From an uncultured Acetatifactor sp. (GTDB lineage: Bacteria > Bacillota > Clostridia > Lachnospirales > Lachnospiraceae), in assembly GCA_947624245.1 (NCBI GenBank), contig CANQJL010000012.1:1-64000 (forward strand): a stretch of DNA of 64,000 nucleotides, written 5' to 3'. The notes under the pieces are model-generated. The model searched no databases. It saw only the letters and a program-made list of their open reading frames with translations, and was not told the DNA's origin. Below, one piece after another: positions 48,381 through 62,026 of this stretch (its first letter is position 1; every line of letters starts with the position of its first letter). Both the position numbers and the translations under genes were made by a program.

Positions 48381-50873
48381 ATGAAGAATGCAGCACCAAA
48401 GAAGCCGGAAAAGATAAAGTTCGACAAGGAGCTTTTTAAGAGGAGCGTCCTCTATAACGTGAGGACCCAGTACCGCAAGGAGCTGGAGGAGGCCACGCCC
48501 CAGCAGATCTTTCAGGCGGCTTCCCTTGCCATCAAGGATCAGATCATAGGAAATTGGATGGACACCCAGAAGGCGTATGAGAAGGAAGACCCCAAGATGG
48601 TCTACTACATGTCCATGGAGTTTCTGATGGGCCGTGCCATGGGCAACAACCTGATCAACATGCAGGCGTATCAGCCTGTAAAGGAAGCGCTGGAGGAGCT
48701 GGGACTGGACCTGAATCTGGTGGAGGATCAGGAGCCCGACGCGGCGCTGGGAAACGGCGGACTGGGACGTCTTGCAGCCTGCTTTCTGGATTCCCTGGCA
48801 ACACTTGGGTATCCGGCATACGGCTGCGGTATCCGTTACAGATACGGCATGTTCAAGCAGGAGATCCGGGACGGATATCAGGTGGAGGTGCCCGACAACT
48901 GGCTGGCGGACGGCAACCCCTTTGAACTGCGCCGCCCCGAGTACGCCAAGACCGTAAAATTCGGCGGCTATGTGTCCATGCGCACCGACGAGAACGGACA
49001 GGGCCACTTTGTTCAGGAAGGCTATCAGGCCGTGCGGGCCGTTCCCTTCGATCTGCCTATTGTGGGCTACGGCAACGGCATCGTGAATACCCTGCGCATC
49101 TGGGACGCGGAGCCCATGGAGGTATTCCAGCTGGATTCCTTTGACCAGGGCGACTACCGCAAGGCCGTGGAGCAGGAGAACCTTGCCAGGAACCTTGTGG
49201 AGGTGCTGTACCCCAACGATAACCACTACGCCGGCAAGGAGCTGCGCTTAAAGCAGCAGTATTTCTTTATCTCCGCGTCCGTGCAGGCGGCCGTGGCAAA
49301 ATACATGAAAAAGCACGACGACATTCGTAAGTTCCATGAGAAGGTAACGTTTCAGCTGAACGACACGCACCCCACCGTGGCCGTGCCGGAGCTGATGCGT
49401 ATCCTGCTGGACGACTATAATCTGTCCTGGGACGATGCGTGGTATATCACCACCCATACCTGCGCCTATACCAACCACACCATTATGGCGGAGGCGCTGG
49501 AAAAATGGCCTATCGACCTGTTCTCCAGACTGCTCCCCAGAATCTATCAGATCGTGGAGGAGATCAACCGCAGGTTCGTGCTGGAGATCGAGCAGAAATA
49601 CTCCAATATCTACGGCGTGGACGTACAGGAGAAGATCCGCAAGATGGCGATCCTCTATGACGGACAGGTGAAGATGGCCCACATGGCCATCGTGGCCGGC
49701 TATTCCGTGAACGGTGTGGCAAAGCTGCACACGGAGATTCTGAAGAATCAGGAGCTGAAGGATTTCTACGAAATGTTTCCGGAGCGGTTCAACAACAAGA
49801 CAAACGGCATCACCCAGAGACGTTTCCTGCTGCACGGCAATCCGCTGCTGGCAGAATGGGTGACCTCCAAGGCGGGCGACGGCTGGATCACCGACCTTCC
49901 CCAGATCGCTAAGCTGAAGGATCTGGCGGGCAACAGCAAGGCGCAGAAGGAATTCATGGATATCAAATACAAGAATAAGCTGCGTCTGGCCAAATATATT
50001 CTGGAACACAACGGCATTGAGGTGGACCCCAAATCCATCTTCGATGTGCAGGTAAAGCGTCTCCACGAGTACAAGAGACAGCTTCTGAATATTCTGCATG
50101 TGATGTATCTCTACAACGAGCTGAAGGCAGATCCGCAGAAGGAGTTCTTCCCCAGAACGTTCATCTTCGGCGCAAAGGCTGCCGCAGGCTATCGGAACGC
50201 AAAGCTGACCATCAAGCTGATCAATTCCGTGGCGGACGTGGTCAACAACGATCCTGCCATCGGCGGTAAGATCAAGGTAGTGTTCATTGAGAATTACAAT
50301 GTCTCCAACGCGGAGATTATTTTCGCGGCGGCCGACGTCTCCGAACAGATCTCCACTGCCAGCAAGGAGGCTTCCGGTACCGGCAATATGAAATTCATGC
50401 TGAACGGCGCGCTGACGCTGGGAACCATGGACGGCGCCAATGTGGAGATCGTGGAGGAAGTGGGCGAGGAGAATGCATTTATCTTCGGCCTCAGCTCCGA
50501 CGAGGTCATCGGCTACGAGCAGAACGGCGGCTACGATCCCATGGATATCTACAACAGCGACGAGGATATCAGAAGGGTGCTGAATCAGCTGGTGGACGGA
50601 ACCTATGCCGCAGACACGGAGCTGTTCAGACCGCTGTACAATTCCCTGCTGAACACGCTCTCCACGTCCAAGGCGGATACCTACTTTATCCTGAAGGACT
50701 TCCGCTCCTATGCGGAAGCGCAGAAGAAGGTGGAAGAGGCGTACAGAGACAAGGCAGGCTGGGCAAAGAGCGCTATTCTCAACGTGGCAGGCTCCGGCAA
50801 GTTCACCTCCGACAGAACCATTCAGGAGTATGTGGACGAGATCTGGCATCTGGATAAGGTGGAGCTGAAGTAA
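48381..50873 (+). CDS. glgP: Glycogen/maltodextrin phosphorylase
   Basis: The 830-residue PLP enzyme has the family signatures YYMSMEFLMGRAMGNNL, ALGNGGLGRLAACFLDS, FQLNDTHPTVAVPEL and EASGTGNMKFMLNGALTLG, in which Lys near 671 holds the cofactor. It releases glucose 1-phosphate from glycogen or maltodextrins. The length is standard. AAAGGAGA lies nine bases before the ATG. The gene is separate from glgC/glgD in this window, so synthesis and breakdown are under different promoters. Confidence 0.95.
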   Translation: MKNAAPKKPEKIKFDKELFKRSVLYNVRTQYRKELEEATPQQIFQAASLAIKDQIIGNWMDTQKAYEKEDPKMVYYMSMEFLMGRAMGNNLINMQAYQPVKEALEELGLDLNLVEDQEPDAALGNGGLGRLAACFLDSLATLGYPAYGCGIRYRYGMFKQEIRDGYQVEVPDNWLADGNPFELRRPEYAKTVKFGGYVSMRTDENGQGHFVQEGYQAVRAVPFDLPIVGYGNGIVNTLRIWDAEPMEVFQLDSFDQGDYRKAVEQENLARNLVEVLYPNDNHYAGKELRLKQQYFFISASVQAAVAKYMKKHDDIRKFHEKVTFQLNDTHPTVAVPELMRILLDDYNLSWDDAWYITTHTCAYTNHTIMAEALEKWPIDLFSRLLPRIYQIVEEINRRFVLEIEQKYSNIYGVDVQEKIRKMAILYDGQVKMAHMAIVAGYSVNGVAKLHTEILKNQELKDFYEMFPERFNNKTNGITQRRFLLHGNPLLAEWVTSKAGDGWITDLPQIAKLKDLAGNSKAQKEFMDIKYKNKLRLAKYILEHNGIEVDPKSIFDVQVKRLHEYKRQLLNILHVMYLYNELKADPQKEFFPRTFIFGAKAAAGYRNAKLTIKLINSVADVVNNDPAIGGKIKVVFIENYNVSNAEIIFAAADVSEQISTASKEASGTGNMKFMLNGALTLGTMDGANVEIVEEVGEENAFIFGLSSDEVIGYEQNGGYDPMDIYNSDEDIRRVLNQLVDGTYAADTELFRPLYNSLLNTLSTSKADTYFILKDFRSYAEAQKKVEEAYRDKAGWAKSAILNVAGSGKFTSDRTIQEYVDEIWHLDKVELK

Positions 50874-50959
50874 ATTGCCTTGCGGCCTCTGTGATCGACC
50901 GGAGCAGTAAAACGGCGTAATAGACGTAATCAGTCATAATCAATAAGAAGAATCAAAAT

Positions 50960-51005
50960 TTTAGTCAAGTATGATTGCCGAATCATACTTGACTAAATTA
51001 TTTTT
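50960..51005. terminator. Long AT-rich perfect hairpin between glgP and the recombinase gene
   Basis: TTTAGTCAAGTATGATT (50960-50976), loop GCCG and its exact complement (50981-50997) make a 17-bp stem, followed by TTATTTTTAT on the plus strand. A-rich DNA on the other side gives T-rich RNA from the opposite strand. It probably ends glgP transcription. The stem is unusually long and AT-rich for a terminator, and it lies 77 bases before a serine recombinase gene, so it could also be that protein's binding site. Confidence 0.65.
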
Positions 51006-51074
51006 ATAAGCTTTTTCTTTTTGACGAATTTCATAGAAAGATGCGATCGATAACATTATGCAGGAGGGGTCATT

Positions 51075-51662
51075 ATGACAGTATACGGATATGCGAGAGT
51101 GAGCAGCAGAACACAGAATGAGGACAGGCAGATCATTGCGCTCTGCGAAGCGCAGGTGCCAAAGCGCAACATTTTTATCGACAAACAGTCGGGCAAGGAT
51201 TTCGACAGGCCGATGTACAAGAAAATGATCTGTAAAGTAAAGGCGGACGACGTGATCTATATTCAGAGCATCGACCGTCTCGGCAGAAATTACGAGGAGA
51301 TCATGCAGCAGTGGAAGCTGCTCACCAAAGAGAAGGGCGCCGATATCGTCGTGATCGACATGCCGCTTCTGGATACCCGCAGAGGCAAGGATCTGATGGG
51401 TACGTTCCTGTCGGACATTGTGCTTGCGCTGCTCAGCTACGTGGCCGAGAACGAGCGCACGAACATAAAGAGAAGACAGGCGGAGGGCATTGCGGCCGCA
51501 AAGGCAAAAGGAGTTCAATTCGGAAGGAGGCCGCTGCCTCTGCCGGACAATTTTCCGGATGTGTGCGATCTTTGGAAAAGGAAGGAAATTTCGCTGCCGG
51601 AAGCGGCAGAACGGTGCGGAATGCCGAGATCTACGTTTTACGAAAAGGCAAAGAAAATCTGA
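51075..51662 (+). CDS. Serine recombinase (resolvase/invertase family)
   Basis: The 195-residue protein begins TVYGYARVSSRTQNEDRQ, with the nucleophilic serine at position 10. It contains the catalytic-core stretches DDVIYIQSIDRLGRNYEEI and LSYVAENERTNIKRRQAEGI, and ends with a short helix-turn-helix (SLPEAAERCGMPRSTFYEKA). This is the size of a resolvase or invertase, not of a large phage serine integrase. No invertible segment or paired crossover site is obvious, apart from the long dyad at 50960-50997. It lies 198 AT-rich bases upstream of the FHA gene and marks the left edge of an accessory-looking segment. Confidence 0.88.
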   Translation: MTVYGYARVSSRTQNEDRQIIALCEAQVPKRNIFIDKQSGKDFDRPMYKKMICKVKADDVIYIQSIDRLGRNYEEIMQQWKLLTKEKGADIVVIDMPLLDTRRGKDLMGTFLSDIVLALLSYVAENERTNIKRRQAEGIAAAKAKGVQFGRRPLPLPDNFPDVCDLWKRKEISLPEAAERCGMPRSTFYEKAKKI

Positions 51663-51860
51663 AAAAGTATACTTTGCCGAATTGCACATCACTTCTACAT
51701 GTTACTACAGTTTGTTTCCAAAGTCTACAATTTTTTTCAAAAAATCGGCAAAATATCAGCAAAAAAAGGAATTCGATAAAGTATAGATTTTTAGATACGA
51801 TCCAAATACCGATATGCCTATTTTTGGAGAATAAGAGGAGTAATACGAGGAGGAGATAAC

Positions 51861-52457
51861 ATGGCGATACGGGAATGTGCAAACGGACATCTTTATGACA
51901 CGGATCAGCATGCGAGCTGTCCGTACTGTCAGGGAAACGCGGCAAGGATCAACTTTGAAGGCCCGTCGGTGGGGCGGACGGTAGGGATTGCGCCCGAAGC
52001 GGAGGTGGGCGCGACAATGGCGCCCGTGGGCTACACGAGGCAGCAGGACAGGAGCGATACGGGCAAGACGGTCGGCGCTTTTCAGAAGAAGCTGAGCTTC
52101 GAGCCGGTCGTAGGGTGGCTGGTGTGCTTTGACGGTCCGGAAAAAGGCAAGGATTTCAGGATTTACGGGAGGAACAACACCGTCGGCAGAAGCGAGAAAA
52201 TGGATATCTGCATCAAGGGCGATCCCACCATATCCAGAGAGAATCACGCGAGGCTTGCCTATGACGAGAAGCACAACGCTTTTCATCTGGTTCCTGCGGA
52301 GAGCACCAATACAATCTATCTGAACGAGGAGCCGGTCTATGTGCCCACCAAGCTGAGCGAATATGATGTGATCGAATTCGGCGACTGCAAACTGGTATTC
52401 GTTCCTTTCTGCAACGAACGGTTCACATGGCAGACAGGCTTCAAGCAGGAACAATGA
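51861..52457 (+). CDS. Zinc-ribbon plus FHA domain protein
   Basis: The 198-residue cytoplasmic protein starts with a zinc-ribbon-like knuckle (Cys 6, His 10, Cys 20, Cys 23 in ECANGHLYD...CPYC). A Thr-containing linker (about 36-75) follows, with SVGRTVG, VGATMAP and GKTVGAF motifs that look like phospho-acceptor sites. The C-terminal FHA domain (about 85-195) retains the phospho-threonine-binding Arg and Ser (VGRSEKMDICI, TISRENHARL). It could be both substrate and reader in the adjacent kinase cassette. GAGGAGAT precedes the ATG. Its TGA is one base before the ATG of the PP2C gene, so the two are translationally coupled. Confidence 0.85.
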   Translation: MAIRECANGHLYDTDQHASCPYCQGNAARINFEGPSVGRTVGIAPEAEVGATMAPVGYTRQQDRSDTGKTVGAFQKKLSFEPVVGWLVCFDGPEKGKDFRIYGRNNTVGRSEKMDICIKGDPTISRENHARLAYDEKHNAFHLVPAESTNTIYLNEEPVYVPTKLSEYDVIEFGDCKLVFVPFCNERFTWQTGFKQEQ

Positions 52458-52458
52458 T

Positions 52459-53277
52459 ATGGCATGGTTTAAGAGAAAATCAAAACGGAATAACAAAGCG
52501 GAAGCGCCGGCAGACTTGGAACAGGCGGGCCGCCCGCCTTACCGGCTCGAGAACATACAGGGGGTAGGAGCGCGGGCAAGGCAGGAAGATTCCTTCACTT
52601 TTATGAATGCGCTTGACGAACAGCTTTACCGTGACCGTGGAATGATGTTTGCGGTCTGCGACGGCATGGGCGGGATGAAGGACGGAAAGGCAGCCAGCGA
52701 GACGGCGATCAGCAGCTTCCGGCGGTTCTTTGAAGAACTGGACAGAGATGCGGATATCGCAGGACAGCTGCGGGAGAGCGTTTTTGCCGCTTCGGCAGAG
52801 ATAGAGGACATCTTGGAGGGCGACGGCGGAAGTACGGTCGTGATCGGGGTGATTTTTCAGGAACAGCTCTACTATGCCAGCGTAGGCGACAGCTATTTCT
52901 ACCTCAAGAGAGACGGCGGCCTGTACCGACTGAACACGGAGCAGAATATCTGCCATCTCAGATATCTGGAAAACATAAGAGACGGCGGTTTTGACCCGCA
53001 GGAGTGCCGGAACGATCCGGAGGCTGCGGCGCTGACGCAGTTCCTCGGCATGACCGGACTTTCGCAAGTAGACTGTTCCGTGCGGCCTCTGCGTCTGCAG
53101 TCCGGAGATCTGCTGCTTGCGTGTTCCGACGGCGTGGGCGGCGTGGTGGACGAGCGGGAGCTTTTGGAGATTCTCGACGGCTCGGAAGGAATGTGCCGGC
53201 GGATCGAGCAGTGCATCGCAGAACATGCGAGGCAGAATCAGGATAACTATACGGCATTGATTATACAATGCCTGTAA
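52459..53277 (+). CDS. PP2C-family Ser/Thr protein phosphatase (first of two)
   Basis: The 272-residue protein has a basic N-terminus (AWFKRKSKRNNKAEA) and a PP2C domain. The metal-binding motifs are all present: GARARQEDSF, AVCDGMGGMKDG, SVGDSYFYL, ACSDGVGG and NQDNYTALII. It should remove phosphate from Ser/Thr in the cytoplasm. A second, different PP2C gene lies three genes on, which suggests distinct targets. No membrane helix is visible. It overlaps the end of the FHA gene region and precedes the protease gene by 18 bases. Confidence 0.88.
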   Translation: MAWFKRKSKRNNKAEAPADLEQAGRPPYRLENIQGVGARARQEDSFTFMNALDEQLYRDRGMMFAVCDGMGGMKDGKAASETAISSFRRFFEELDRDADIAGQLRESVFAASAEIEDILEGDGGSTVVIGVIFQEQLYYASVGDSYFYLKRDGGLYRLNTEQNICHLRYLENIRDGGFDPQECRNDPEAAALTQFLGMTGLSQVDCSVRPLRLQSGDLLLACSDGVGGVVDERELLEILDGSEGMCRRIEQCIAEHARQNQDNYTALIIQCL

Positions 53278-53295
53278 AAAAGAGAGGACAAGAAT

Positions 53296-54660
53296 ATGAG
53301 AGAAAAATTACTACAGCGTATGCGCATAGCCATTCTGTCGGTCTGTGCGTTACTGGCAGCGGGCTGTATGGGCAGCAGGGCCTATGCGTTTGAGGGAAGC
53401 GCCCAAGACGGAACGGTGGCCATAGTATTCTACCTGAAGGGCGCTTTTACATTTATCACGGACGGGCAGCAAATGGCGACACTGCAGGAATTCGGAGATG
53501 TGCAATATAGCAGCGGCTCGGGCTTCTTTATCGGGGCTTCCGGAGAGGATCCGCAGTATATCGTTACCAACTGCCATGTGGTCGAGAGCTATCTTGAGGC
53601 GGACGAGGGCGGTACATTTATCACTCCTTTGGAACAGGAGTATCAGGGATATCCCGTGTATCTCGGAGCGACAAGCTGTGAGCTGCGGGTCTACTATGAC
53701 GATGATGACTATGATATTGCCTATGTGGAAGCCTACGGCGATGTGAACAAGGTCGATCTGGCGGTGCTCCGAATCAAAAATGCGACCGACAAGCGCCGTG
53801 CCCTTCAGTTTCTGATTCCTACGGAGGACATGAAGGGTGATACGGTCTATACGATCGGCTATCCCGGAAATGCCGACAATGATTTTTCGAGCGCAAGTCA
53901 TTACGGTGTTGAGGACTCTACCATGCATCGTGGCGTTATCAACCGCTTTGTCATGAACGATATGGGCGTGGAGAGAATCGCAATCGATGCGACGATCCAG
54001 CACGGCAATTCCGGCGGACCGCTGGTCACGGAGGACGGTTATGTGATCGGCGTCAATACCAATGTGCATTCTACCCGCCCCTATGAGGATCAGGTCGAAA
54101 TGGATTATTATGCCATCAACGCCTCGGAGGTGACGCATTTTCTGGATCAGAACAACATCGACTATGAAATGGCGGGCAAAGGCGGTTCCGGCCTCGGCAT
54201 CGTGCTGATCCTCGTCGGCGTCGTGGCTGTTGTGGCTGTCGTGGCCGTAGCGGTTGTGATCGTCGTTCTGGTCCTGAAGAAGAGTAAGAAGGGAGCAGGG
54301 GCGAAGGAGCCGAAGCCTGTCCAAAAAGTCGGCGTGAAGGCGGTCGTCAGATCTATGGCTTCACAGCACGGCGGCAGGGAGTTCCCTGTCGGCAGTTCCC
54401 CCATCATTATCGGGCGGAATCCGGCAGAGTGTACGATTGTGTTCCAGGAGGGGACAAGAGGCGTCAGCGGCAGGCATTGTTCGGTATATTATAATGCCGG
54501 CGCCAATGTCTTTACCCTGACGGACCTAGGCTCTACCTACGGAACCTTCCTGGGCAGCGGTATGCGGCTGACGGCCAATTCGCCGATCAACTTAAAGCCG
54601 GGGGATATCTTCTATATCGGAGAGAAGACCAATGTATTGAAAGTTGAAACGAGGCAGTAG
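53296..54660 (+). CDS. Secreted trypsin-like protease, membrane anchored, with cytoplasmic FHA domain
   Basis: The 454-residue protein has a signal peptide (cleavage near SRAYA-FEG; LLAAGC is a possible but non-canonical lipobox). An extracellular chymotrypsin-fold protease domain follows, with His 94 (TNCHVVE), Asp 154 (VDLAVLRI) and Ser 239 (HGNSGGPLV). A strongly hydrophobic membrane helix (about 299-327), a basic linker and a C-terminal FHA domain (about 360-452; IIIGRNPAEC, VSGRHCSV, LGSTYGTFLG) complete it. No PDZ domain is present, unlike HtrA. The topology puts the protease outside and the phospho-threonine reader inside, so inside-out control of proteolysis is plausible. Confidence 0.87.
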   Translation: MREKLLQRMRIAILSVCALLAAGCMGSRAYAFEGSAQDGTVAIVFYLKGAFTFITDGQQMATLQEFGDVQYSSGSGFFIGASGEDPQYIVTNCHVVESYLEADEGGTFITPLEQEYQGYPVYLGATSCELRVYYDDDDYDIAYVEAYGDVNKVDLAVLRIKNATDKRRALQFLIPTEDMKGDTVYTIGYPGNADNDFSSASHYGVEDSTMHRGVINRFVMNDMGVERIAIDATIQHGNSGGPLVTEDGYVIGVNTNVHSTRPYEDQVEMDYYAINASEVTHFLDQNNIDYEMAGKGGSGLGIVLILVGVVAVVAVVAVAVVIVVLVLKKSKKGAGAKEPKPVQKVGVKAVVRSMASQHGGREFPVGSSPIIIGRNPAECTIVFQEGTRGVSGRHCSVYYNAGANVFTLTDLGSTYGTFLGSGMRLTANSPINLKPGDIFYIGEKTNVLKVETRQ

Positions 54661-54663
54661 ATC

Positions 54664-55392
54664 ATGTTTGATGTTTATTCATATACCGGCCGTGGAGGCC
54701 GCGGTTATAATGAAGACTCGGTCGGCAGCAGCTATGACAATGACGATGGCAGCGGAATCTTTGTCGTGGCGGACGGTCTGGGAGGCCATGTGCTCGGTGA
54801 GGAGGCTTCCGCGGCGGCTGTGGATACCATCGTTTCCGGCTGGGGCGATTTCGTAGAAGATATCGCATCGCAGCTTCGGGAGAAGATAGCGCAGGCCAAT
54901 CAAAATATCCTGCAGATCCAGCAGGAGAAGAACGCCGTCATCAAAACAACGGTCGCGGCGCTTGCGGTAAACGGCGATCGGGCGGCATGGGCCAACGTGG
55001 GGGATTCCAGAGTGTATTTTATCCACGATGACAGACTGCACGCCTACACGAAAGATCACTCCGTAGCCTATATGAAATACAGAGCGGGAGAGATCACCAG
55101 AGAGCAGATCGCAACGGACGAGGACCAGTCGAGACTTTTGCGCAGCCTCGGAAGCGAGGAGCGAAATGAACCGGAAATTTATGAGGCGGATGTGATGCTT
55201 GTGCCGGGCGATGCTTTTTTCCTCTGCTCGGACGGAGCGTGGGAGTATCTTAGGGACGAGGAGATTCTGATCGATTATCTGAAATCCGAGACGGCCGAGC
55301 ATTGGGCGGAACTGCTGCTCCTTCGTATCATGGAAAGGGTCGATGGTGAAAACGATAATCTGTCCCTGCTGACCGTGATGCTTACCAATTGA
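54664..55392 (+). CDS. PP2C-family Ser/Thr protein phosphatase (second)
   Basis: This 242-residue PP2C protein carries the canonical motifs GRGGRGYNEDSV, VVADGLGGHVLGE, ANVGDSRVYFI, LCSDGAWEYL and ENDNLSLL. It is closer to the compact bacterial PstP/PrpC form than the first phosphatase. It starts three bases after the protease-FHA stop. It probably reverses phosphorylation by the kinase encoded next. A gap of 76 AT-rich bases separates it from the kinase gene. Confidence 0.88.
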   Translation: MFDVYSYTGRGGRGYNEDSVGSSYDNDDGSGIFVVADGLGGHVLGEEASAAAVDTIVSGWGDFVEDIASQLREKIAQANQNILQIQQEKNAVIKTTVAALAVNGDRAAWANVGDSRVYFIHDDRLHAYTKDHSVAYMKYRAGEITREQIATDEDQSRLLRSLGSEERNEPEIYEADVMLVPGDAFFLCSDGAWEYLRDEEILIDYLKSETAEHWAELLLLRIMERVDGENDNLSLLTVMLTN

Positions 55393-55468
55393 TACACAAA
55401 TATCTGTCTGCAAAGTAATTATTAATTATATCAGAAAATGCCGTTTGGCGGAAAGGAACACAGAAGAC

Positions 55469-57304
55469 ATGGACGAAAAATTTCCTCTGGCGCTGCCCGA
55501 AGGCACCATATTAGCGGGCCAGTATATGATTGAAAAGGCTCTGGGTCAGGGAGGATTCGGCATCACCTACAGGGCGGTCGATCATAAGACCGGCCAGAAA
55601 GTCGCGGTGAAGGAATTCTTTCCGGACACGCTGGCATACAGGGAAACGACGACCGTTATCTCATACCCTGGAGAACGCACCGAGAACTACGAATACGGCA
55701 AGGAGAGCTTCCTGCAGGAAGCGCAGACTCTGGCGGAGTTCATCGGGAACGAGAATATCGTGCGTATCCACAGCTATTTCGAGGAGAACGGGACGGCGTA
55801 TTTTGTCATGGACTATATCGAGGGCAAGAGCTTCGATGAGTACCTCAAAGAAAAGGGCGGCAGGATCGGCATAGAGGAAACCGAACGCATACTGCTTCCC
55901 ATCATGGACGCACTGAATGCGGTGCACAGCAAGGGGATCGTCCACCGTGATGTGACGCCTGACAACATATATCTCACTAACGACGGCAAGGTGAAGCTGC
56001 TGGACTTCGGAGCGGCGAGATACAGCCTCGGAGACAAGAGCCGCAGCCTTGACGTTATCCTGAAGCACGGCTTTGCGCCGAAGGAACAGTACACGAGGCG
56101 GGGCAAGCAAGGACCCTTCACAGATGTATACAGTCTGGGCGCCACCTTTTATTTCGCGCTGACGGGGAAGCGGCCGCCGGATTCCGTGGAGAGGCTTGAC
56201 GAGGACGATCTGATTCCGCCCAGCAGTCTGGGAGTGGAGATTCCGAAACAGAAGGAGGATGCCATTTTAAAGGCGCTGAGCGTTCAGCCCCAGGATCGGT
56301 TCCAATCCATGGGCGAATTCAAGAATGCGATGCTGGCCGGTACCGCTGCACGGGCTCCGCAATCTGCCGGCGCGACCAACCGGATGGTATTCACGGCGCC
56401 GGTTCAGCCGGTACAACCACAGCAACAGCCCATGCCGCAGCAGCAGGTCCGGCCTATGCAGCAACAGCCCATGCCGCAACCCATGCCGCAACAGGTCCGG
56501 CCCATGCAGCCGCAGCCCATGTCTCCGCAGCAGGCGGCTGCGGTTCCGAAGAAGAAAAATGCGCCTGCCATGGCGGCAGTGATCGGCGGCAGCATTGCCG
56601 GCGGCGTGTTCCTGATCGCTGTCATTGCGGTCGTCATGGTTCTGTTTTTGAACGGCCGCGTAAAGGAGGTCAGCGACGTGAAGTACACTATGGCCGGTGG
56701 TGTGACGGGTGTATATACAGGCAGCTGGCAGCACGACGCGCCGCAAGGAGAAGGCAGGATGGTATACCCAAGCGGTGATGTATATGAAGGCGAATATGCT
56801 GATGGTAGCCCGAACGGTCAGGGCACATATACCTATGCCAACGGCAGTGTATATAAAGGCGAGTGGAAAGATGGTAAGTATAACGGTCAGGGCACGTTAA
56901 CCTTTTTCAACGGCGATGTATATGAAGGTGAATGGAAAGATAGCCAGTATAACGGCCAAGGCACATATACCTGGGCCGATGGTCGCGTGTATGAAGGCGA
57001 ATGGAAAGATGACAAAAAAAGCGGCCAGGGAACGATAACCTATGCCGATGGCAGTGTATATGAAGGCGAATGGGAAGATGACAAAAAAAGCGGCCAGGGC
57101 ACGATGACCTATGCCAACGGCGATGTATATGAAGGCGAATGGAAAGATGGCGAAAAAAGCGGCCAGGGCACGATGACCTATGCCAACGGGAATGTATATG
57201 AAGGCGAATGGGCCAACGGCGAGCCCAACGGTTATGGAGTTGGCACTTGGGCTAACGGTAAGCGGCTAGAGGGGACATGGGTAGATGGTGTGTGGCAGGG
57301 CTGA
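55469..57304 (+). CDS. Transmembrane Ser/Thr kinase with extracellular MORN repeats
   Basis: From the ATG at 55469 (AAAGGA upstream) the protein has 611 residues. The kinase domain (about 18-290) has the glycine loop GQGGFG (26-31), Lys 48 in VAVKEFFP, HRD at 159-161 and DFG at 179-181, so it should be active. A Pro/Gln/Met-rich linker (311-360) leads to one membrane helix (about 367-394). The outside part is eight 23-residue MORN repeats plus a partial one (414-611; units of the type VYEGEWKDG...GQGTMTYANG). Known bacterial kinases usually sense through PASTA or other domains, so a MORN ectodomain is unusual. A TTG at 55445 extends the frame without a ribosome site. Confidence 0.88.
   Translation: MDEKFPLALPEGTILAGQYMIEKALGQGGFGITYRAVDHKTGQKVAVKEFFPDTLAYRETTTVISYPGERTENYEYGKESFLQEAQTLAEFIGNENIVRIHSYFEENGTAYFVMDYIEGKSFDEYLKEKGGRIGIEETERILLPIMDALNAVHSKGIVHRDVTPDNIYLTNDGKVKLLDFGAARYSLGDKSRSLDVILKHGFAPKEQYTRRGKQGPFTDVYSLGATFYFALTGKRPPDSVERLDEDDLIPPSSLGVEIPKQKEDAILKALSVQPQDRFQSMGEFKNAMLAGTAARAPQSAGATNRMVFTAPVQPVQPQQQPMPQQQVRPMQQQPMPQPMPQQVRPMQPQPMSPQQAAAVPKKKNAPAMAAVIGGSIAGGVFLIAVIAVVMVLFLNGRVKEVSDVKYTMAGGVTGVYTGSWQHDAPQGEGRMVYPSGDVYEGEYADGSPNGQGTYTYANGSVYKGEWKDGKYNGQGTLTFFNGDVYEGEWKDSQYNGQGTYTWADGRVYEGEWKDDKKSGQGTITYADGSVYEGEWEDDKKSGQGTMTYANGDVYEGEWKDGEKSGQGTMTYANGNVYEGEWANGEPNGYGVGTWANGKRLEGTWVDGVWQG
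56708..57301 (+). repeat. 69-bp coding tandem repeats (MORN units)
   Basis: Eight in-frame 69-bp units (starting at 56708, 56777, 56846, 56915, 56984, 57053, 57122 and 57191) and a partial ninth encode the MORN repeats. Units 5 to 7 are nearly identical at the DNA level, sharing runs such as TATGAAGGCGAATGG and AAAAGCGGCCAGGG, which implies recent duplication and possible copy-number change between strains. Confidence 0.88.
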
Positions 57305-57351
57305 CCGAGACTTTCAGTGAAAAACAAATTTAATAAAGCATTACTCACATG

Positions 57352-57396
57352 CAGCCGCAGACGGTCAGTCCTATTTCCTGTCTGCGGCTGTTTATT
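57352..57396 (+). terminator. Terminator of the kinase cassette
   Basis: CAGCCGCAGAC (57352-57362) and GTCTGCGGCTG (57380-57390) form a perfect 11-bp stem followed by TTTATTTG, 47 bases after the kinase stop. Confidence 0.8.
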
Positions 57397-57609
57397 TGAA
57401 TTTTTGGGGGAATTTTCAGGAGGATTATTCGGGAAATTTTTCTTGTAATCCTCTCCGGATTCTGTTATAGTATGGTTGTCGGCGGTAATGAAACTGCCAA
57501 AAATCTTTATGCACATGGATATATCTCATCTTCAGAGCAAATATCCCAATAAAAGAAGCAGACAACAGCATAACGGAGCGTGGGAGCAGATACAGCAGAG
57601 TATTTTTTG

Positions 57610-58491
57610 ATGTCAGGAAAAACCATTGTAAAAGCATCAAAAGTATCCTATAATAAGAGCAAGCAGAAAAAGGAAGCTTTGAAATCCCTTGAGAGTTTGA
57701 CCCTTGCTGACCGATTTCTCTTTTTTAAGGTGATGCAGGATGGGGAGTTGTGCCAACGGCTCCTGGAGATCATCTTGGGAGTGGAGATTGAGCGCATCGA
57801 ATACCTTGAGGGAGAGAAGACCATTGAGGTTTTTCGGGGTGCCAAGGGGATACGGCTGGATATCTATGTGAAGGACGGAAGATCGACCGTCTACAACGTG
57901 GAGATGCAGGCGGTGCATGCGTCGAACCTGCCCCAGAGAAGCCGGTACTATCAGAACCTGATCGATGCGAACCTGCTGGATCGGGGAGAGGATTACCGCC
58001 TGCTCAACAGAAGCTATGTGATCTTTATCTGCATGGAGGACATCTTCCATAAGGGCAGGCACATTTATACTTTTGAGAATCGCTGCAGGGAAGAATTGGG
58101 GCTTGCTCTTAGCGACGGGACCGTGAAGATCTTTTTAAATCCGTATTCGGAGATGGAGGATGTCACCCCTGAGCTTGGGAACTTCTTAAAGTACCTGGCG
58201 GAGGGAGTGGCAGTGGACGAGTATACAGAAAGGCTGGTGGAAGCAGTGGAGACGGCAAAGAAGGATCCAAGGCTGATGGTGGAATATATGTCCTATTATG
58301 CGGAGCAGGCGGACCGCCGCGCCGAGAGGGAGGAGAGCCGTGCCGCCGGACTGGAGGAGGGACTGGTTCGCGGAGTCATCCAGACCATAAAAGCCGTTCA
58401 GGGGACAAAAGAGCAGGCAGCACAGCAGCTGATGATTCAGTGCGGCATGAGCGAGGAGGAAGCCTTTACCGCTGTAGAAAAGTGCTGGTGA
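57610..58491 (+). CDS. Rpn family PD-(D/E)XK nuclease/putative transposase
   Basis: The roughly 293-residue protein has the N-terminal LADRFLFFKVMQDGELCQRL helix, the PD-(D/E)XK core (GIRLDIYVKDG then VYNVEMQAV, giving Asp and Glu-x-Gln), and YYQNLIDANLLDRGEDYRLL plus SYVIFICMEDIF. A C-terminal Arg/Glu-rich coil follows. Rpn proteins promote RecA-independent recombination and often vary in copy number. All catalytic-type residues are present, unlike the broken relative at the window start. The ATG at 57610 is chosen; a GTG at 57580 with GGAG two bases upstream would add ten residues. A 12-bp hairpin lies 97 bases downstream. Confidence 0.82.
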   Translation: MSGKTIVKASKVSYNKSKQKKEALKSLESLTLADRFLFFKVMQDGELCQRLLEIILGVEIERIEYLEGEKTIEVFRGAKGIRLDIYVKDGRSTVYNVEMQAVHASNLPQRSRYYQNLIDANLLDRGEDYRLLNRSYVIFICMEDIFHKGRHIYTFENRCREELGLALSDGTVKIFLNPYSEMEDVTPELGNFLKYLAEGVAVDEYTERLVEAVETAKKDPRLMVEYMSYYAEQADRRAEREESRAAGLEEGLVRGVIQTIKAVQGTKEQAAQQLMIQCGMSEEEAFTAVEKCW

Positions 58492-58895
58492 ATCAAAACA
58501 CGGGTGAGGCAAATTTGTGTAAAAGTGCATATCTGTCGATTGGGGTCGAAACTGATTGACTATGTGTTATGGAGAATGTGCAATTTATTTGAGGTCGCAA
58601 ACTGCGACCTCAAACACAGAAACAGAAAATGGTGCATCTCTTAAGGATGCGGGTAAGAAGTGTTTTGGAATATCCGGATAGAGCTGCCGATATGATTGCG
58701 ACAGAAATAGTATTTGTAATTATTTTTTTCTTGATTTTTTTCAAGAAAATATGTTATCTTACCTATGTAAATATGTAAATAAATATGCGCATAATGACAC
58801 ATGTGGTGCTTGGCACGTAAATCTGATTACAGAGTATGTTTACGTAAGTGAAGCGCTATGTGTGTTTTTTTGCGCCCAAACGGAGGAAATTCATT
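58492..58895. other. Non-coding AT-rich gap with hairpins
   Basis: These 404 bases contain no supported gene. TTTGAGGTCGCA-aac-TGCGACCTCAAA (58588-58614) is a perfect 12-bp hairpin without a T-run, possibly ending the Rpn transcript or marking an element end. TTTTCTTGA-tttttt-TCAAGAAAA (58726-58749) is a second, AT-rich dyad. The direct repeat TATGTAAA (58765-58782 region) lies in the likely promoter area of the next gene. I could not single out a confident promoter. Confidence 0.5.
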
Positions 58896-59597
58896 ATGCC
58901 GAGAAATCAATTTCAAAGAATGGTGTTCGCTTTTATTACTGTGGTGATTACCGTACACGCCTATGTATTTTACAGCCTCTATGTAATTAACGGCGATACC
59001 TTGATGGAGCTCAATCAGACAACCGGCGTCATCGCGGCGCTGAACAAACAGGGCGGGATCTATATGTTTGGAACATATCTGCCCATTTGGGCCTGTGTGC
59101 TGGTCGAATTCTGCTTTGCGTACCTGTTGGAAAATATGGTTGGCAGCCCGGCCTCTTTCAAACTGGCCTGCCGTGTGTTCAATCCGGCCAAAAATCATCC
59201 CATGATTTTTGAAACGGCCATCATTTGTGCCACGGTGGGTATTATGTGTCCGGCCATGAGTCTTATTGCAGCCTTTCTTTATTACCCTTATTATATGGGA
59301 TTTCATATCGTCACATTATTGGCAAATTGGCTGAAGCTGATCTGCCTGAACCTTCCTTTTGCTTATTTCTCCCAGCTTTTCTTTATTCAGCCGGCAGTGC
59401 GTGTAATCTTTAAAGCGATTTTCCGGCGGGATATCAAACGCAGAGAACAGGAAAAGATTCATGCGCAGCCGGAGAGTGAGCAGGATGTGATTCTCAGTAT
59501 ATTTCAGCGCATTGATGAAATACAGGAGGAGATTGCGCATGAACACCGCCGCAGGAAAGCATTGGAAGAAGATGTACATAAAATGTCTGCAAGGTGA
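58896..59597 (+). CDS. Membrane protein with two DUF2798-like units
   Basis: From the ATG at 58896 (GGAGG nine bases upstream) the protein has 233 residues. It shows four membrane helices in two similar pairs: QRMVFAFITVVITVHAYVFY with LPIWACVLVEFCFAYLLE, and ETAIICATVGIMCPAMSLIA with LLANWLKLICLNLPFAYF. The pairing resembles DUF2798, a small two-helix family of unknown function. The C-terminal 45 residues form a charged coiled coil (IFQRIDEIQEEIAHEHRRRK). The long frame upstream of this start lacks a ribosome site. The function is unknown. No genetic link to its neighbours is evident. Confidence 0.75.
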   Translation: MPRNQFQRMVFAFITVVITVHAYVFYSLYVINGDTLMELNQTTGVIAALNKQGGIYMFGTYLPIWACVLVEFCFAYLLENMVGSPASFKLACRVFNPAKNHPMIFETAIICATVGIMCPAMSLIAAFLYYPYYMGFHIVTLLANWLKLICLNLPFAYFSQLFFIQPAVRVIFKAIFRRDIKRREQEKIHAQPESEQDVILSIFQRIDEIQEEIAHEHRRRKALEEDVHKMSAR

Positions 59598-59747
59598 TGC
59601 TTGGCAAAAAGCGATGAGTCCTGCCAAACAATCAAGTATCGCCACAGTGCGAAGTCGAATATAGTAAGAGCCTCCAGGATACAAAAACGAAACAATGCCG
59701 CCCTATCATTGTCGGATAGAATACCGAAAAACGAGGGAGGCATGAAT

Positions 59748-62026
59748 ATGAATTTCAGAATCGGACAAAGCGTCGGACTCTTGCTGACACTGTGCACTGT
59801 GCTCTTTTTGACGGCGTGCGGCCAGGGAGCGTCTGCGGGGGAGAATGGCGCGGACAAAGACGCGCAGGCAGGGGAAGGCCCTGCTTTTTCCGACACATCT
59901 CGGCGGGAGTGGGTCTATGTGCCGGAAGTGTTTACTGTGGAGGATGAACGTGCGGATTATGGACGGATGCAGCCGGTGGGCGACACCCTCTGCTATGTGT
60001 CACTGGGAGAGGAGGCTGTCAACAGTGTAAGGAATATCTGCCGGTATTCTCTGACCGATCGGGAGCTGAAGAGCGTCCCTGTCAATTGGCCGGAGGGAGG
60101 AAATGATTGGGATGTGGGTTACCGGTTCTTTACAAAAGATCAGAGCCTGTATATGACCGCAAATGTCTATCCGGCATCCGGTTCCATGAAACGCTTTTTG
60201 TGCAGGTTTGATTGGGAAGGGAACTGCCTGTTTTCCGAGGATATTACAGAAAAGGCAGGGAGCAATGTTTCTATTCACGGACTGACCGTGGACAGTCAGG
60301 GGAGACTCTATATTTTTCTTGATAACGGGGAGCTGCTGCTGTATACCGGTGACGGGGCTTATCATGGCTCTGTCAGTTACGGTTCACCGGAGAACCGGAT
60401 GACTGTCCGGATAGAGGGAGCCTGCGAAGGGGCTGACGGCAAATTGTATGTCTGCATCAGTCAGGAAAGGATGAATGTTGCCGGAGAAAATACGGAAGAG
60501 ACGGACAGCGTCCTTTGTACTCTGGCGGAAATAGATTTTGAGAATGCCCGGCTGCTGAAGATCGCGGAGAACCTTCCCGATATCAGAGGTCTCTGCGCGG
60601 GAAGCCGACCGGACATAGATTCGGCCGCGCGGGTGACGGTTCGGGCGACCGATATGATCTTTTGCTGTATGATGACACGGCGGTCTACGGATACCGCTTC
60701 GATGCGGGGGAAAGCGATTCGGGGTCCGTGGGAGAAGAACTTTTTACATGGCTGGACAGTGATATTAATGGGTACTGTGTCACAAATCTGTATCTGTTGG
60801 AGGACGGCAGGCTGTGCGCCACGGTGGAAGATTGGATAAACGATGACAGGGCCATTGTGACGCTGCAAAGGACCAGGGCGGAAGAAGCGCCCCGGCGGGA
60901 AGAACTGGTGCTGGCCACTGTGAACGGCGGAAGCGATCTGGCGGCAATGGCGGTAAAGTTCAACAGGGGAAACGGCCGCTGTCATCTCACCGTGAAAAAC
61001 TATGAATCCCTGACGGATCTGTACAATTCCATACTGGTAAAGGATCCCGTGGATCTGATCGACCTGTCGGGGCTGAATGTAAGGGAACTGGCAAAAAGAG
61101 GGTTCTTTGAAGATCTGACGCCCTATGTGGCGCAGTCAGAGCTGCTCTCCCCCTCGGATTTTGTAGACGGAATATTGGACGCCTATACCTTCGGTGGAAC
61201 GCTGGCAGGTATCCCGTCGGAAATTTCGATCCGGACGGTAGTGGGAAATCCGGCAGAGCTTCAGAACAAAGAGGGGCTTTCCCTTGAGGAACTGCTGGCG
61301 GCCGAAAGCCGCTATCCGCAGACGAAGACCTTTGACGGGGTCACCAACGAAGAGATGATGCAGTATCTCATGATGTTCAATGAGGATACCTTTATCGATC
61401 GGGACACCGGTACATGCCATTTTGATTCGGAAGAATTTAAGGCGTTGCTTGAGTATGTGGACCAATTTCCGGATAAACCGGCAAACAGTGGGGAGGAAGC
61501 CTTGAAGACAGGGCTTTCGAACGGAGAAATACGGTTCGCCGTTGCGGATCTGTATCCGGGAGCCCTTCGGGATTATCAGAAAATCTTCGGAGAAAATATC
61601 GCCTGTATCGGGTTCCCCACTGCGGACGGCAGTGGAGGACACCTTGTTTTCGGCAGCGGCGCCTACGCCATTGCCGCTGTGTCAGAGAACAAGGAGAGTG
61701 CATGGAGTTTTCTTGAGGAATCTCTTTTGCAGGAGAAAAGTGACCTTTATGCAAGCATTTTTATCAATTATCCCACGTTAAAAAAGGAGCTGGATAAGAA
61801 GGCGGATATTGCCATAGAGAGAAATGAAGTGACTCCGGAGGAGATTCGTGCTGTCATGGAGCTGCTTCCGGACGCGACGCCTTTCTTCTCGGGGGAAAGC
61901 GATGAGATTCTGCAGATCATCAACGAGGAAGCGCCGGCCTATTACAGAGGGCAAAAGGGGGCAGATGACGTGGTAAGCGTGATACAGAACCGTGCTCAGC
62001 TCTACATGGACGAGAGCGGCCGGTAG
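59748..62026 (+). pseudogene. Extracellular solute-binding lipoprotein, frameshifted
   Basis: The 5' part, from the ATG at 59748 (GGGAGG seven bases upstream), encodes a lipoprotein signal (LLLTLCTVLFLTACGQG, lipobox LTAC) and a beta-propeller-like region (GLTVDSQGRLYIFLDNGELL). Between about 60600 and 60645 the reading frame must shift by one base: the original frame ends at 60839, while the other frame resumes with GDRYDLLLYDDTAVYGYRFD. That frame continues through a solute-binding protein domain (VNGGSDLAAMAVKFNRGNG, FGSGAYAIAAVSENKESAW) to 62026. Together they would make a protein of about 760 residues. The lesion is a single indel, a recent inactivation or a sequencing error. No ABC permease genes adjoin it. 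Confidence 0.8.

Follow-up and report, generated by a model that had tools for sequence, protein, structure and literature searches.

A 64,000-nt stretch of DNA from an uncultured Acetatifactor sp. of the Lachnospiraceae (positions 1–64,000 of contig CANQJL010000012.1, assembly GCA_947624245.1; hereafter the window) was found to contain a cassette of five genes, G1 to G5, which we propose to encode a self-contained inside-out phospho-threonine circuit. In this circuit, to which we assign a probability of about one half, the transmembrane (TM) kinase G5 would mark the linker of the zinc-ribbon-FHA protein G1, FHA docking would gather the membrane protease G3, and the PP2C phosphatases G2 and G4 would erase the marks. 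The proposal builds on the domains, catalytic residues and gene company of the cassette, on two position-specific PP2C lineages, on the exchange of kinase ectodomains and on a threonine array in the G1 linker.

The five open reading frames (ORFs) all lie on the + strand in the order G1-G2-G3-G4-G5 (Table 1). A preliminary description of the region as five packed same-strand genes with these domains was borne out by the ORFs and by Pfam scores, all of which exceeded the gathering cut-offs (FHA 20.7, Trypsin_2 27.6, PP2C_2 24, Pkinase 31.7 and MORN 22.5 bits). The gaps of 1, 18, 3 and 76 bases given there hold if G5 starts at ATG 55469, which we prefer to the TTG at 55445 where the listed ORF opens. 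The catalytic residues were likewise all present: G3 carries the triad His94, Asp154 and Ser239, the motifs DGxGG, SDG and DN were found in both G2 and G4, and VAVK, HRD and DFG were identified by eye in the translation of G5, which with its Pkinase domain classes it as a Hanks-type Ser/Thr kinase. The terminator described after G5 corresponds to a hairpin that was absent from the list of a simple terminator scan, the limit of which is exceeded by its 13-nt loop. Few related genes exist elsewhere in the same genome (2.53 Mb, 99.34% complete), where the cassette supplies two of the three FHA places found, two of three for PP2C_2 and one of three for Pkinase, and the set therefore appears largely self-contained; together with domains and topology, this scarcity supports the circuit as first described, on sequence grounds. 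The sole FHA protein outside the cassette (contig 35, L012 8558–9712) is a DUF6382-FHA protein with the TseJ/TsfJ architecture of type VII secretion system (T7SS) variants, here without EssC.

Table 1 Features of the cassette in the window
Feature	Position	Strand	Description
G1	51861..52457	+	198 amino acids; zinc-ribbon-like CxxGH...CPYC N-terminus, Thr-rich linker, FHA (Pfam 47.3 bits); putative adaptor/hub
G1 linker, predicted phospho-threonine array	51936..52103 (approximate limits)	+	GRTVGIA, GATMAPV, GKTVGAF; Thr +1/+3 enrichment in relatives
G2, PP2C of the 'upstream' clade	52459..53277	+	PP2C_2 37.9 bits; clade support 100/100; motifs as in text
G3	53296..54660	+	Hydrophobic signal-like/TM start, Trypsin_2 ectodomain (78.6 bits), TM at about residue 294, cytoplasmic FHA (53.5 bits)
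G4, PP2C of the 'downstream' clade	54664..55392	+	PP2C_2 65.2 bits; clade support 100/100; motifs as in text
G5, Hanks-type kinase-TM-MORN ectodomain	55469..57304	+	Pkinase 124.1 bits; TM at about residue 367; MORN 182.8 bits, 8 stretches
Terminator-like hairpin	57351..57391	+	T-rich tail; fold -26.2 kcal/mol, z -5.99

The recurrence of the cassette was examined across Clostridia. At the level of the order (392 genomes), a search with the single G3 protein (E <= 1e-20) matched 4, its own genome counted; a single-protein contig scan gave 2 loci only. A G1 profile built from six loci matched 49 of these 392 genomes and, in the class sample, 31 of 391; 78 stretches around its matches were fetched besides earlier ones, and their ORFs were labelled with models built from the cassette proteins. 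The trypsin-FHA gene was present in 22 loci, namely the window, L005 and 20 others. As most of these were found through G1, its presence there proves little, and a fairer test of co-occurrence was to search the class sample (391 genomes) with a G3 profile, E <= 1e-100 being taken as full-length, bearing in mind that more distant proteins score lower with a profile itself built from cassette members. This gave 17 full-length trypsin-TM-FHA proteins in 15 genomes, all of which were also in the class list for G1. A PP2C gene was the direct neighbour of all 17, and the G1 gene lay near 16; the seventeenth place (L106) reads PP2C, kinase, PP2C, protease-FHA, kinase, with no G1 by the models used. 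Rarity of co-occurrence, named in advance as an outcome that would speak against the circuit, was thus not seen.

Across the 22 loci the protease gene is flanked by PP2C genes on both sides in 17, before only in 3 and after only in 2. A kinase gene lies within 9 kb of it in 17, and each of the five kinase-less loci (L007, L026, L058, L060 and L073) meets a contig end within 4 kb; a vWA-TM-FHA gene is present in nine. The window's gene order, extra genes allowed, was found again in L008, L009, L013, L053 and L054. The kinase comes first in L005 and L007, and in L061–L063 it leads with G1 placed after the second PP2C. From these varied orders we read the steady core as PP2C, protease-TM-FHA and PP2C plus the zinc-ribbon-FHA gene, with G1 and the kinase as movable partners. 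Of the search proposed at the outset for one five-gene order, co-occurrence therefore stood, and the exact order proved to be one of several and not defining. Evolutionary distances of the cassette genes correlated for most pairs (rho 0.66 for the two PP2Cs and 0.62 for G1 and kinase, 0 of 2000 permutations being as high) and weakly for the downstream PP2C and the kinase (69 of 2000), with L005, L054, L062 and L063 left out and the first kinase per locus used. L005 is the nearest relative of the window (G1 97% and G3 84% identical).

A tree of 20 PP2Cs that precede the protease and 19 that follow it gave two clades (support 100/100), in which the positions were wholly separated; when position labels were shuffled on the tree, about 13 changes were required. 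Those before the protease carry RxxQQ/ED with DGMGG, and those after it mostly NED with DGLGG. We thus read G2 and G4 as an old pair held in position, and not as genes that duplicated recently in the window. In L008 (10108–10434), and at the same place in L053 and L054, a remnant-like PP2C of 107–108 amino acids, present in two families, replaces the second phosphatase.

The kinase partners vary in what they expose. Pfam matches among 26 kinase ectodomains from the group of trypsin-FHA loci, including L006 and L066, were to WG repeats (3), DUF5050 (3), MORN (2), LRR_5 (2), F5/8-type (2), TcaA NTF2-like (2) and RDD (1). Of 39 ectodomains from G1-like loci without trypsin-FHA, six were truncated by contig ends and set aside; the other 33 included PASTA (12), solute-binding (10) and Listeria-Bacteroides repeats (5), with others. 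In L005 (4430–8517), two tandem kinases have kinase domains identical to one another at 290 of 290 positions and 90% identical to that of the window, and the ectodomains align at 24–30%, near the 22–28% of the five printed shuffles, made for one pair. This pairing of near-identical kinase domains with shuffle-like ectodomain identity indicates that the MORN array is an exchangeable sensor, one cartridge among many, and does not define the cassette. The claim of a MORN sensor kinase holds as to a TM kinase with MORN repeats outside, and is revised in that MORN is one of several interchangeable sensors (2 of 26). The L005 tandem itself points to a duplication or conversion of recent date in which sensors were exchanged. 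In the window, the MORN part (56813–57212) is a DNA near-repeat with a 69-bp period, 5.8 copies and 81% matches, and the length of the array may hence differ among strains.

A likely ligand of the FHA domains is offered by the linker of G1. An alignment of six G1 sequences showed invariant Cys/His and GR residues; in the stretch that joins the zinc ribbon to the FHA domain, motifs of the kind GRTVGIA and GKTVGAF recur. For 21 loci (the 22 trypsin-FHA loci with L006, L056, L066 and L067, minus the near-copies L005, L054, L058, L062 and L063), the residues following each linker threonine were compared with 1000 shuffles, LIVMF being counted as hydrophobic. Among 124 threonines, a hydrophobic residue stood at +1 in 55 cases (expected 26.2, standard deviation 4.5) and at +3 in 61 (25.6, standard deviation 4.4), neither value being reached in any shuffle, and was avoided at +2 (7 vs 25.9). 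Serines showed no excess at +3 (20 vs 20.2). FHA domains are known to read a threonine-not-serine signal with a preference at +3. The pattern was weaker in the other G1-like loci (71 vs 39.3 at Thr+3, 52 linkers), and the linkers of kinases (29), trypsin-FHA proteins (22) and vWA-FHA proteins (11) showed no +3 excess. A docking array on those linkers was accordingly rejected, although the 23 threonines of the protease linkers give low power there. We conclude that the threonine array of the G1 linker is the likely FHA ligand, and that the kinase and protease linkers show none of this kind.

On these grounds the circuit would operate as follows. G5 would sense a cue from outside or from the envelope through its exchangeable ectodomain, here MORN, and phosphorylate G1, a soluble zinc-ribbon-FHA protein, on threonines of its linker. 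The FHA domain of membrane-anchored G3, and possibly that of G1 itself, would bind the phosphorylated sites, so that G1 would gather or hold G3 at the membrane, or, in relatives, vWA-FHA, PrsW-FHA or FHA-ABC proteins. Gathering of G3 would alter local proteolysis outside the cell, and the two distinct phosphatases would strip the phosphates. The kinase-substrate assignments, the docking of G3 on G1 and the control of proteolysis are what we infer here.

Several observations weigh against the circuit as proposed. Protease and kinase distances are uncorrelated (rho -0.13). Serines in the G1 linkers show a slight hydrophobic excess at +1 (28 vs 20.5, reached in 29 of 1000 shuffles), the linker of the window holds a single strict T-x-x-[LIV] site, and the number of such sites did not correlate with that of the other FHA domains in a locus (rho 0.28, p 0.16), for which reason we rejected the idea that array size tracks the number of FHA partners. 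Because the test followed the sighting of the linker pattern and drew on sequences that share ancestry, the shuffle counts are not probabilities, and we rate this evidence as strong, not decisive. The FHA domain of G3 reads STYGT, with Tyr in place of the Asn usual in the consensus STNGT. Finally, triad residues are lost in three of the 22 trypsin domains (L026 lacks His and Asp, L055 and L073 all three), so proteolysis cannot be the function of every cassette member. The notion of an FHA-controlled protease therefore survives as to enzyme and topology and has to be given up as a function common to all cassettes. His, Asp and Ser are kept in the other 19, the window included, and also in L106, and catalysis is likely intact in the window's G3. 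All 21 aligned rows, degenerate proteases included, keep the FHA residues G373, R374, S391 and H394, which indicates that FHA tethering outlasts catalysis. An AlphaFold model of G3 (three sequences) had a mean confidence score (pLDDT) of 34 and was not used.

A second group of trypsin-TM-FHA proteins was noted in L107 (5781–7328 and 10462–12039), L108 (8489–9970), L109 (8622–10118), L111 (8120–9787) and L112 (7415–8974), in which the G3 profile matched the trypsin part only. By eye, none of the six has Ser at the GNSGG position, and TTVL-like motifs precede their FHA domains. Their neighbours include PP2C and kinase genes in L107 and L108 and a gene for a large FtsK/EssC-like ATPase in L109 and L111; a 99-amino-acid protein of L109 scored 19.9 with the WXG100 model (cut-off 27.3). 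They may represent a pseudo-protease component, so far unlisted, of T7SS variants; the main text of PMC11217815, which describes such variants, never uses the word 'trypsin'. In a further locus (L110 8412–10583, genome G461) a trypsin domain, a TM segment, a region matching the cassette kinase model and a second TM segment are fused, which would link protease and kinase within one protein, the kinase region being assigned by the cassette model, where Pfam reports no kinase.

Three other explanations were considered. The best of these, unlikely in our view because gene company ties G1 to membrane FHA proteins, is that G1 acts alone as a switch of the GarA/OdhI type, its phosphorylated linker folding onto its own FHA domain to free or block a cytosolic partner, with G3 answering some other phospho-ligand. 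GarA and OdhI, FHA proteins acting as phospho-threonine switches, are the nearest solved chains to G1, with a profile match that spans query residues 65–179 and reaches into the linker, but G1 falls far below the cut-offs of the NCBIfam equivalogs for OdhI (34 vs 200 bits) and FhaB (30.7 vs 125 bits); the TTVL-like motifs of the T7SS-linked protease-FHA proteins, just before their own FHA domains, suggest in-cis switches there. It is improbable, given that 19 of 22 members and L106 keep the triad, that the trypsin-fold ectodomain serves chiefly for binding or sensing, with proteolysis secondary or lineage-specific. Such a role would fit the three degenerate triads with FHA kept throughout, the six T7SS-type relatives without Ser, and the membrane-FHA proteins found at the same place in L006, L066 and L067, whose ectodomains were not recognised as trypsin (a degenerate trypsin fold being our guess). 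Least probable by far is an accessory regulator of a T7SS-like secretion system whose secreted substrates the protease would process, since, for all that the accessible parts of PMC11217815 describe kinases, PPM phosphatases and FHA proteins (TscD/TseD, TscF/TseF, TseJ) in T7SSc–T7SSj and that L109 and L111 each place a related trypsin-FHA gene next to genes of the FtsK/EssC-like ATPase type, a search for WXG100 in 20 cassette genomes gave matches in only one, which was not the window's own (by a model that can miss divergent members), and no EssC/EccC-type ATPase was found in that genome, where the single FtsK_SpoIIIE place over the cut-off lies in a 906-amino-acid frame that is not EssC-sized and no FHA place falls within an EssC-sized frame.

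The setting of the cassette was examined within the genus, in which the upstream glycogen phosphorylase gene was found in all 41 genomes. At 13 of the 15 glycogen phosphorylase places fetched, d801, the gene that flanks the window's island on its right, follows at 0.05–8.4 kb; one of the remaining two has no d801 in reach and one is at a contig end. G1–G5 were seen in none of the 15. The same interval measures about 11 kb in the window (50874–62000), and the cassette of L005 adjoins other genes, so that the cassette is an accessory element, an island within an interval that varies in the genus. A cassette with the right flank of the window is also present in a congeneric genome, G250 (L007), its left side being cut by a contig end. 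The G+C content of G1–G5 is 54–57%, that of the adjacent GlgP 55% and the window mean 51.8%. A serine recombinase gene (51075–51662) and a PDDEXK_2 transposase-like gene lie beside the cassette. Phase variation by this recombinase was rejected, as a scan for inverted repeats over 50850–57650 gave a hairpin (50955–51002) and a 16-nt chance-like pair and no element resembling an invertible promoter. Carriage by plasmids was also rejected (18 plasmid records matched G1, all below 60% identity and none covering 80%), as was carriage by phages, in which a search with G3 gave no match.

Beyond the window, we tentatively propose, at just short of an even chance, that such cassettes form a general modular inside-out platform in Clostridia: a multi-threonine zinc-ribbon-FHA hub, a position-fixed PP2C pair, one type of kinase with freely exchanged sensors and a swappable set of FHA-tethered membrane outputs, which would comprise protease, pseudo-protease, vWA, PrsW protease and ABC transporter. 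In L006 (3645–5054), L066 (5278–6708) and L067 (5342–6772), a PrsW-type membrane protease is fused to FHA (confirmed with Pfam for L006 only) and its gene adjoins those of membrane-FHA proteins with unrecognised ectodomains. An FHA-FHA-ABC transporter gene lies inside the cassette of L055 (11820–14135), with similar ORFs in L056, L085 and L086, and appears to provide another FHA-bearing membrane output. A different type of FHA/PP2C locus was seen in L032 (4000–15068) and about 25 similar loci (e.g. L033–L042, L068, L070 and L071), with TM-FHA, FHA, PP2C and vWA genes and proteins of 722 and 826 amino acids without Pfam match; a protein of 550–750 amino acids in these loci, with a TM segment at about residue 250, is matched by the cassette PP2C model, and Pfam shows TPR only.

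Such a platform, if real, would let a cell control extracellular proteolysis through phosphorylation in the cytosol. The cassette suggests that some Clostridia steer an extracellular protease from inside by phospho-threonine docking, with sensors swapped like cartridges, and hints that the kinase/PP2C/FHA sets now tied to T7SS variants belong to a broader family in which membrane outputs are tethered by FHA. The cassette yields one precise prediction, testable in vitro: the threonines of the G1 linker as phosphorylation sites.

We finally compared the cassette with known systems. PADLOC reported no complete defence system, with no match for G1 or G2, weak ones for G3 (RT-Protease 56 and LmuA 47 bits) and G4 (PDC-M21C 41 bits) and mostly generic PD-T4-6 kinase models for G5; a defence identity was rejected, as none of these is assignable. 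No description of a trypsin-TM-FHA/PP2C/kinase cassette was found in the literature searched, most subscription papers being outside its reach. G5 is set apart from the PASTA kinases PrkC/Stk1 by MORN in place of PASTA and by an NCBIfam score (170.1 vs 450 bits) below the cut-off. G3 shares with HtrA/DegP a trypsin-like domain with His-Asp-Ser, and its nearest solved chains are HtrA proteins; it differs in having no PDZ in the Pfam result, in its TM segment and FHA domain, and in its score with the Do family model (61.8 vs 416.2 bits). G1 shares with GarA, OdhI and FhaB its small size, its solubility, its FHA domain and the presence of Thr motifs near the N-terminus; it differs in a zinc-ribbon start, in having several such motifs and in an adjacent protease gene.

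At the level of gene sets, kinases with a zinc ribbon or TM segment, PP2C and vWA genes occur together beside GAP1-N2 GTPase systems in Actinobacteria, for which the accessible parts of PMC7159879 describe no GTPase or protease-FHA link. The T7SSc–T7SSj variants, also of Clostridia, cluster genes for N-terminal kinase-TM-ectodomain, PP2C and FHA proteins (PMC11217815, as far as accessible), whereas the window cassette has neither EssC nor WXG100 that we could find. A further parallel is the threonine phosphorylation pathway of the type VI secretion system (T6SS), in which the accessible parts of PMC3953482 and PMC5995506 describe a membrane kinase (PpkA), a PP2C (PppA) and an FHA protein (Fha) that govern an envelope activity by phospho-threonine binding. 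The window cassette likewise clusters genes for a kinase, PP2C and FHA proteins; no T6SS structural genes were among the nearby ORFs scanned with Pfam, the genome not having been searched with T6SS models. It differs in its output, a TM protease that itself bears FHA, in its two PP2Cs and in its zinc-ribbon-FHA hub, and the platform, if real, would be a Gram-positive counterpart of that pathway, independent of secretion systems.

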